Assembly (NCBI GenBank): GCA_903861715.1
Contig: CAIOVI010000046.1
Coordinates: 1-49,302 of the forward strand
Direction: 5' to 3'
Length of the DNA: 49,302 bases
DNA from: an uncultured bacterium
GTDB lineage: Bacteria > Patescibacteriota > Minisyncoccia > Moranbacterales > GWC2-37-73
The stretch's first letter is position 1; each line of letters starts with the position of its first letter. Made by a program: the position numbers and the translations under genes. A model generated the notes under the pieces. The model was not told the origin of the DNA, made no database searches, and saw nothing but the letters and a program-made list of their open reading frames with translations. Shown here piece after piece: positions 44,409 to 45,775 of this stretch.

Positions 44409-44777
44409 TTAATGTTTTTGTGAAAAATTTAGCACAAAATTTTCCAATTTTATTAATCTCTTTTCCAATTTCTGAAAGTCTTCTAAATCAACCTTCTGAG
44501 AGAGTTTGTGCTTAATATCGGTTACATCTACTTGAAGACTGTCAACTTTTGTTTCAAGACTGTCAACTTTTGTTTCAAGATTATCAAATCTAGCATCCAT
44601 CTTGTCAAATCTAGCATCCATCTTATCAAATCTGGCATCCATGCCATCCAAGCGACCAATGATTCCACTATGTTGTTCAGAAATAAGCTGAATTCCATCG
44701 TTCATGCCTTCTAGCATCGACATCACTTCACCGAAGCCAAAAGTTTTCTCTTTAGTTGTACTTTTTTGCTTTTTCAT
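44409..44777 (-). CDS. Coiled-coil protein with heptad duplications
   Basis: 122 residues. After a basic start the chain has three MDARFDK-type heptads and two LETKVDS-type heptads in tandem. They are coded by near-identical 21-base units, so the array grew by recent duplication (about 44530-44640). The heptads predict a coiled coil of some 80 residues and oligomerisation. No catalytic motif. Such proteins in small genomes are of unknown role; the tandem repeats may vary in number between strains. Confidence 0.75.
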   Translation of the reverse strand: MKKQKSTTKEKTFGFGEVMSMLEGMNDGIQLISEQHSGIIGRLDGMDARFDKMDARFDKMDARFDNLETKVDSLETKVDSLQVDVTDIKHKLSQKVDLEDFQKLEKRLIKLENFVLNFSQKH

Positions 44778-44823: not shown

Positions 44824-45324
44824 TTACCCATGAATTAACTTATCCATAATCCCATATGCGGCCACGCCAGCAGCAATCGAAACATTGAGCGACCCTTTCA
44901 CTCCTCGCATCGGAATTGCCACAGCCAAATCGCATTTTTCCAAAATCTCTGCTGAAATCCCGTCCACTTCATTGCCCAAAATCAAAGCCACAGAAGAATT
45001 TGGCTCAAATTTTCCAAGCTCAATTGCATCTGGAGTTGTCTCCAGCGCCACCACGGCGCAGTTTTCTTTTTTGAGTTTTTCCAAAAGCTGAAAAATGTCT
45101 TCACATTTTTCCCAAGGCACACTTTTTTCACCGCCCAACGCCGTTTTTTCAATCATCTTGTCCGCTTTGCTTTTCAACTCTTGATCTTCTTCAGTGGAAG
45201 GCGCGTGAGAATAACCGGTCAAAAAAATTTTGGAAACTCCAGCCCCATCAGCCGTGCGGAAAATCGCCCCCACGTTATAGGCGCTGCGAATGTTGTGCAA
45301 AATCAAAAAAAGTTTCTTTTCCAT
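44824..45324 (-). CDS. SpoU/TrmH-family RNA 2'-O-methyltransferase
   Basis: 166 residues with the SPOUT knot. Motif 1 is LILHNIRSAYNVGAIFRTAD, motif 2 is LILGNEVDGISAEILEKCD, motif 3 is AIPMRGVKGSLNVSIAAGVA. It methylates ribose in a tRNA or rRNA with SAM as donor. Short, with no N-terminal RNA-binding extension. The target is not predictable by eye. No neighbour points to a specific role; the next gene downstream is the coiled-coil protein. Confidence 0.92.
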   Translation of the reverse strand: MEKKLFLILHNIRSAYNVGAIFRTADGAGVSKIFLTGYSHAPSTEEDQELKSKADKMIEKTALGGEKSVPWEKCEDIFQLLEKLKKENCAVVALETTPDAIELGKFEPNSSVALILGNEVDGISAEILEKCDLAVAIPMRGVKGSLNVSIAAGVAAYGIMDKLIHG

Positions 45325-45606: not shown

Positions 45607-45636
45607 TTGGCAAAAAAAACTGAAATGATTTATACT
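45607..45636 (+). promoter_or_regulatory. Promoter of the candidate structured RNA
   Basis: Plus strand TTGGCA (45607-45612), 18 bases, TATACT (45631-45636). The predicted start near 45642-45644 coincides with the base of the RNA's closing stem. Confidence 0.55.
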
Positions 45637-45641
45637 AAAAA

Positions 45642-45775
45642 CAAAGAGCCTTCAGAATAGCTCGGCGAAAAATTGAAACCCACCTGGATTATCAGGGAAA
45701 AAATATATTTTTTTCCGATACTTTTTTCAAGGGATTCACACGCCCCTTGCTTGCATTGAGGGCTTTTTTGCTACC
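45642..45775 (+). ncRNA. Candidate structured small RNA, 6S-like shape
   Basis: About 130 nt. The ends pair as a 12-bp stem with one bulge (CAAAGAGCCTTC at 45642-45653 with GAGGGCTTTTTTG at 45758-45770). A bubble of 10 and 13 bases follows. Then comes an inner stem of GGCG with CGCC and TGAAACCC with GGGATTCA. The apical part holds CCTGGATTATCAGG and an A/T-rich hairpin. The TTTTTT run at the end could terminate transcription. A closing stem, a central bubble and an apical arm resemble 6S RNA, which binds the RNA polymerase holoenzyme. No conserved sequence identifies it with certainty, and other structured RNAs are possible. Confidence 0.45.

Follow-up and report, generated by a model that had tools for sequence, protein, structure and literature searches.

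Comparative sequence analysis indicates that the window, which is the whole 49,302-nt stretch of DNA analysed here, carries a real, previously uncatalogued gene for a small structured RNA that is not a recognisable 6S RNA. The gene occupies positions 45642-45769 of the plus strand, with a predicted 5' end at 45642-45644 and a 3' end in a T-run, and it is delimited and supported by the limits of homology, the folding z-score and covariation. An earlier note on this DNA had proposed a structured RNA with its own promoter, a proposal for which the homologues, the covariation and the conserved promoter give strong support. The gene specifies a free-standing structured sRNA typical of Candidatus Moranbacteria, and we consider it moderately likely that this RNA acts in trans, most likely by binding a protein.

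The family is missing from Rfam 15. The order supplies about 72 homologues that covary strongly, its boundaries and promoter are mapped, and it is testable now in existing metatranscriptomes. A large order of small genomes without a recognisable 6S RNA keeps a lineage-specific RNA instead; the same order, in the genomes tested, is also without a recognisable signal recognition particle (SRP). Searches of a library of papers for 6S, SRP or noncoding RNAs of Patescibacteria turned up nothing relevant.

Promoter, transcript limits and genomic setting

The contig holding the RNA gene belongs to a 1.28-Mb genome assembly. The gene lies in a gap that has a SpoU-type methyltransferase gene (44824-45324, minus strand) on one side; on the other come small ORFs on the minus strand and then a gene for a RecQ-type helicase. 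Elsewhere in the window, 44409-44777 on the minus strand encodes a small protein that is coiled-coil-like and has ARFDKMD and LETKVDS repeats in tandem.

The promoter claimed earlier (TTGGCA-18-TATACT) is present at 45607-45636 of the plus strand. The -35 element TTGGCA starts at 45607, the -10 element TATACT ends at 45636, the spacer is 18 nt, and the pair scores 10 of 12 matches. We found that the -10 element is conserved in the homologues: 60 of 65 homologues have a hexamer with at least five of six matches to TATAAT at a distance of 13-25 bases ahead of the P1 anchor, compared to 4-14 in upstream control windows of equal width. The -35 element is also enriched, with five of six matches in 17 of the 65 homologues vs about 1.5 expected.

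At the other end, the 3' strand of the closing stem P1 and the T-run (45756-45769, plus strand) make up a terminator-like end, for which both the paired cells and the T-rich tail of the homologues speak; at least six Ts are found within the first ten bases of the tail in 65 of 77 aligned copies. Conservation extends from near the predicted transcript start to the T-run. The RNA is 128 nt long in the window and about 125-130 nt in homologues, more where side hairpins are inserted, which brings some relatives to 140-240 nt. The -10 element and the T-run are kept while the flanks and the neighbouring genes change between genera, and this persistence is the strongest sequence evidence for a transcript that would be autonomous.

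No conserved reading frame was detected, as no frame was open in more than 29% of the homologues, and the RNA gene is non-coding. The neighbours across loci include genes for a methyltransferase, helicases, an ABC transporter, TspO, YceG and RadC, as well as PfkB, a NuoF-type subunit, TsaD and PheS. We looked for a neighbour function common to the loci and found none; the neighbours differ between genera. In the sampled loci with a downstream gene, that gene varies and is mostly on the opposite strand, so the RNA does not precede a conserved gene in the same orientation, and in the window no plausible plus-strand gene follows it. Since the neighbours share no theme, we regard it as very improbable that the RNA acts in cis on a neighbouring gene, as a leader, riboswitch or attenuator, even though the conserved loops are aptamer-like and P1 doubles as a terminator.

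Fold and covariation

The 128-nt RNA has a folding energy of -38.4 kcal/mol compared to a mean of -25.3 for dinucleotide shuffles (z of -3.83, with none of 200 shuffles as good), while the whole 169-nt interval, 45607-45775, gives a z of -3.14. When a 36-pair structure was imposed on 45 full-length homologues, 97.1% of cells were paired vs 89.7% after shuffling; the same structure slid by one base left 59-69% of cells paired (at most 68.9%). Covariation over related genomes, which the earlier note had named as the check on its fold, is decisive and takes the form of compensatory double changes in the proposed helices. We counted 142 double-change cells vs 38.4 after shuffling (none of 500 shuffles reached 142), in an alignment that was fitted, like a 67-row alignment giving the same covariation picture, to a model of nearly the same structure, a bias in favour of this structure. 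A first MAFFT alignment, built without structure, had by itself shown double changes at 11 pairs. The conserved positions cluster in helices, junctions and loops. Judged from these alignments, helices P1, P2 and P3 are real beyond reasonable doubt.

The supported fold, as predicted from the aligned homologues, is a rod formed by P1, P2 and P3, to which two hairpins at the apex and a U-rich strand are attached (all parts are given on the plus strand). The 5' strand of P1, 45643-45655, pairs with 45756-45768; double changes were seen at seven of 11 tested pairs, and 99% of cells are paired. A closing stem had been described here before with 45758-45770 as its 3' side; the stem is real, and its partner strand was about two bases off. 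The internal loop between P1 and P2 has AAT (45656-45658) opposite TGCA (45752-45755) and is nearly invariant. In three homologues (L027, L041 and L047) its two sides are changed in a coordinated way, from CAGAA/GCATTG to CACGA/GAGTTG or GAATTG.

The 5' strand of P2 (AGC..GGCG, 45659-45667) pairs with the covarying 3' strand at 45741-45751, with double changes at six of seven tested pairs. This helix runs within the 10 x 13 open bubble drawn earlier (about 45656-45665 x 45745-45757), and that bubble is given up. An A-rich side loop follows at 45668-45673. In several families it holds an extra hairpin of about 20 to over 100 nt; in other families the extra hairpin is located in the 3' strand of P2 instead. 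P3 is formed by UGAAACCC (45674-45681) and GGGAUUCA (45731-45738), an 8-bp helix of the pattern UGRRACCC/GGGRYYCA that includes one A.A mismatch. Its 3' strand, too, is backed by covariation: the third and fourth pairs (35-95 and 36-94) switch among A-U, G-C and C-G.

Two hairpins are the best reading of the apex, in place of the single arm envisaged before. The first, P4, is CCUG-GAUUAU-CAGG at 45683-45696. With a single exception, every distinct sequence that retains the apex is able to make 4 bp or more here, and among them are the double changes CCUA/UAGG and CUUA/UAGG; on the fixed alignment P4 is weaker, with 88% of cells paired. The second, P5, is the A-U hairpin GAAAAAA..UUUUUUC at 45697-45715, with 98.7% of cells paired and double changes at three pairs. 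A conserved, unpaired U-rich strand, CGAUACUUUUUUCAA, occupies 45716-45730.

Two other arrangements were considered. For the apex RNAalifold proposed the helix UGGA/UUUUCA, which at 84% of cells was the least supported of all, and P4 was put in its place. Folding of the window sequence by minimum energy nevertheless favours this helix over P4, and for this reason the apex is the least certain part of the fold. A pseudoknot or triple helix joining the U-rich strand with the A-rich loop or the P5 stem was considered by eye and set aside, since several lineages do not keep the U-run.

Distribution and altered copies

Most of the relatives belong to the order Candidatus Moranbacteria / Moraniibacteriota. 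DNA searches found the element once per genome in all six congeners and as real copies in 13 of 19 family genomes, after palindrome echoes and one spurious match had been removed. A covariance model built from those 13 copies gave matches in 75 of 131 order genomes. Once weak false matches were removed by inspection, about 72 of the 131 carry a homologue, one per genome. Over the searches as a whole, the matches taken out as spurious were L014, L085, L086 and L146, together with reverse-strand echoes of the palindrome. Model E-values are rough.

A second, broader model matched 27 of 384 class genomes; 22 of these lie inside the order, the other five in two further families. With the same broader model, 380 phylum-wide genomes gave three matches, all inside the order. 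Scanning 84,980 species genomes for an exact pattern returned 39 records, most of them titled Candidatus Moranbacteria / Moraniibacteriota and the remainder mainly uncultured, Parcubacteria, Paceibacterota or Patescibacteria bacteria. A single record with the RNA (L111) is titled Micavibrio, probably through mislabelling or contamination. Viral contigs, scanned twice for exact patterns, gave no matches to the RNA.

Within the order the occurrence is patchy: the RNA was not found in many complete genomes, and two congeners of carriers (G012 and G015) had no match. When 20 apparent non-carriers were searched with looser filters, the sole yield was a disrupted copy in G091. The patchiness may come partly from divergence beyond the reach of the models.

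Three copies are interrupted or truncated. In G091 (L147) an insert with the ends AAGTCTGTC/GACAGACTT lies in the apex and splits P4, while P3 retains the C-G alternative pair. In G110 (L077) an insert with the ends AGACCTCTTG/CAAGAGGTCT lies within the U-rich strand. Both inserts are short, inverted-repeat-ended and MITE-like, and the apical domain was hit independently in two genera. The copy in G095 (L073/L144) has lost the whole apical domain, is without a good -10 element, and is possibly a decaying or minimal form. All three are still able to form the basal rod. Given the patchy occurrence and these three copies, any function of the RNA would be dispensable in some lineages.

Proposed function and comparison with known RNAs

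In the mechanism that we propose, a sigma-70-type promoter would set the start of transcription at the foot of P1, and P1 with the T-run would end the transcript. The RNA folds into the rod with its conserved internal loop, A-rich side loop, two apical hairpins and U-rich strand, and would probably act in trans, neither as a cis-element nor as an SRP RNA. The conserved loops and the apex would be presented, most likely, to a protein. The resulting RNP may be of a regulatory or decoy type in the style of 6S or Ms1, with RNA polymerase as one candidate partner.

The main rival is a trans-acting sRNA that works by base pairing, with CGAUACUUUUUUCAA and the A-rich loop as seeds for mRNA and the rod in a protective role. 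Neither stretch pairs in the supported fold, both are largely conserved, and the conserved U-rich strand could equally serve as a seed. On the other hand, several lineages (L036, L042, L056, L061) differ in the U-run, the A-rich loop is swapped for a hairpin in others, and conservation falls mostly at paired or junction positions. We see base pairing as possible but rather unlikely and prefer protein binding.

With bacterial SRP RNA (RF00169, RF01854) the RNA shares a rod shape and a housekeeping size, and as the order yielded no match to an Rfam SRP RNA, an unrecognised one was conceivable. RF00169 gave no match in 15 order genomes, including the genome of the window (controls, 13 of 14), and RF01854 gave none in 131 order genomes. 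The M domain of the partner protein Ffh (PF02978) was not matched in any of the 15 order genomes tested, carriers and non-carriers alike (controls, 14 of 14). The RNA itself has no match to an SRP model and, as described above, is missing from many complete genomes. As no SRP model matches the RNA and none of the 15 genomes tested gives a match to the Ffh M domain, we exclude, with near certainty, that it is the SRP RNA of this lineage. Judged by the SRP RNA models and the Ffh M domain, the tested order genomes may lack a canonical signal recognition particle.

The comparison with 6S RNA used the general 6S anatomy in PMC8414754 and PMC9130861 as a yardstick; the lower bound on the length of 6S and Ms1 RNAs is 150-160 nt (PMC9130861). 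No Rfam family matched the locus at the gathering threshold, and permissive thresholds gave nothing credible. The Rfam 6S model (RF00013) had no match in the window or its relatives, nor in any of 131 order genomes, though control genomes gave matches. The RNA resembles 6S in being a stand-alone, rod-like sigma-70-type transcript with a long closing stem from the transcript start and a terminator at the end; its own promoter and terminator are not a 6S-specific feature. Unlike 6S, it is 128 nt long instead of about 160-200 nt or more, which is less than even the shortest 6S RNA known, has small internal loops and a covarying P2 in place of a large central bubble, ends in a two-hairpin apex, and is lineage-restricted and patchy. 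The '6S-like' label of the earlier note, taken as membership, fails on the Rfam match, the length and the bubble.

A divergent 6S RNA would mimic an open promoter, bind the RNA polymerase holoenzyme and template product RNAs. Besides the rod and the start of the closing stem, the 6S niche may be vacant in the order, given the lack of Rfam 6S matches, and a 'GATACT' in the 3' strand looks like a -10 element. This word, however, is often GTTACT or GTTAAT, with the A at the second position lost. Together with the missing 6S match, the P2 helix inside the proposed bubble and the apex, this makes a divergent 6S RNA improbable. In a more novel but rather unlikely reading, the RNA represents a new class of regulatory RNAs that form RNPs in an order of Patescibacteria; it possibly binds RNA polymerase and replaces 6S by a different fold, a rod with a side loop and two hairpins at the apex.

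Ms1, an actinobacterial RNA that binds core RNA polymerase, offers a further comparison. Ms1 is about 300 nt long with a central bubble (PMC9130861) and has conserved synteny, whereas the RNA described here is 128 nt long, has no such bubble and shares no neighbours across its loci. What the two have in common is that each is a lineage-specific, free-standing structured RNA of a group without a recognised 6S RNA.
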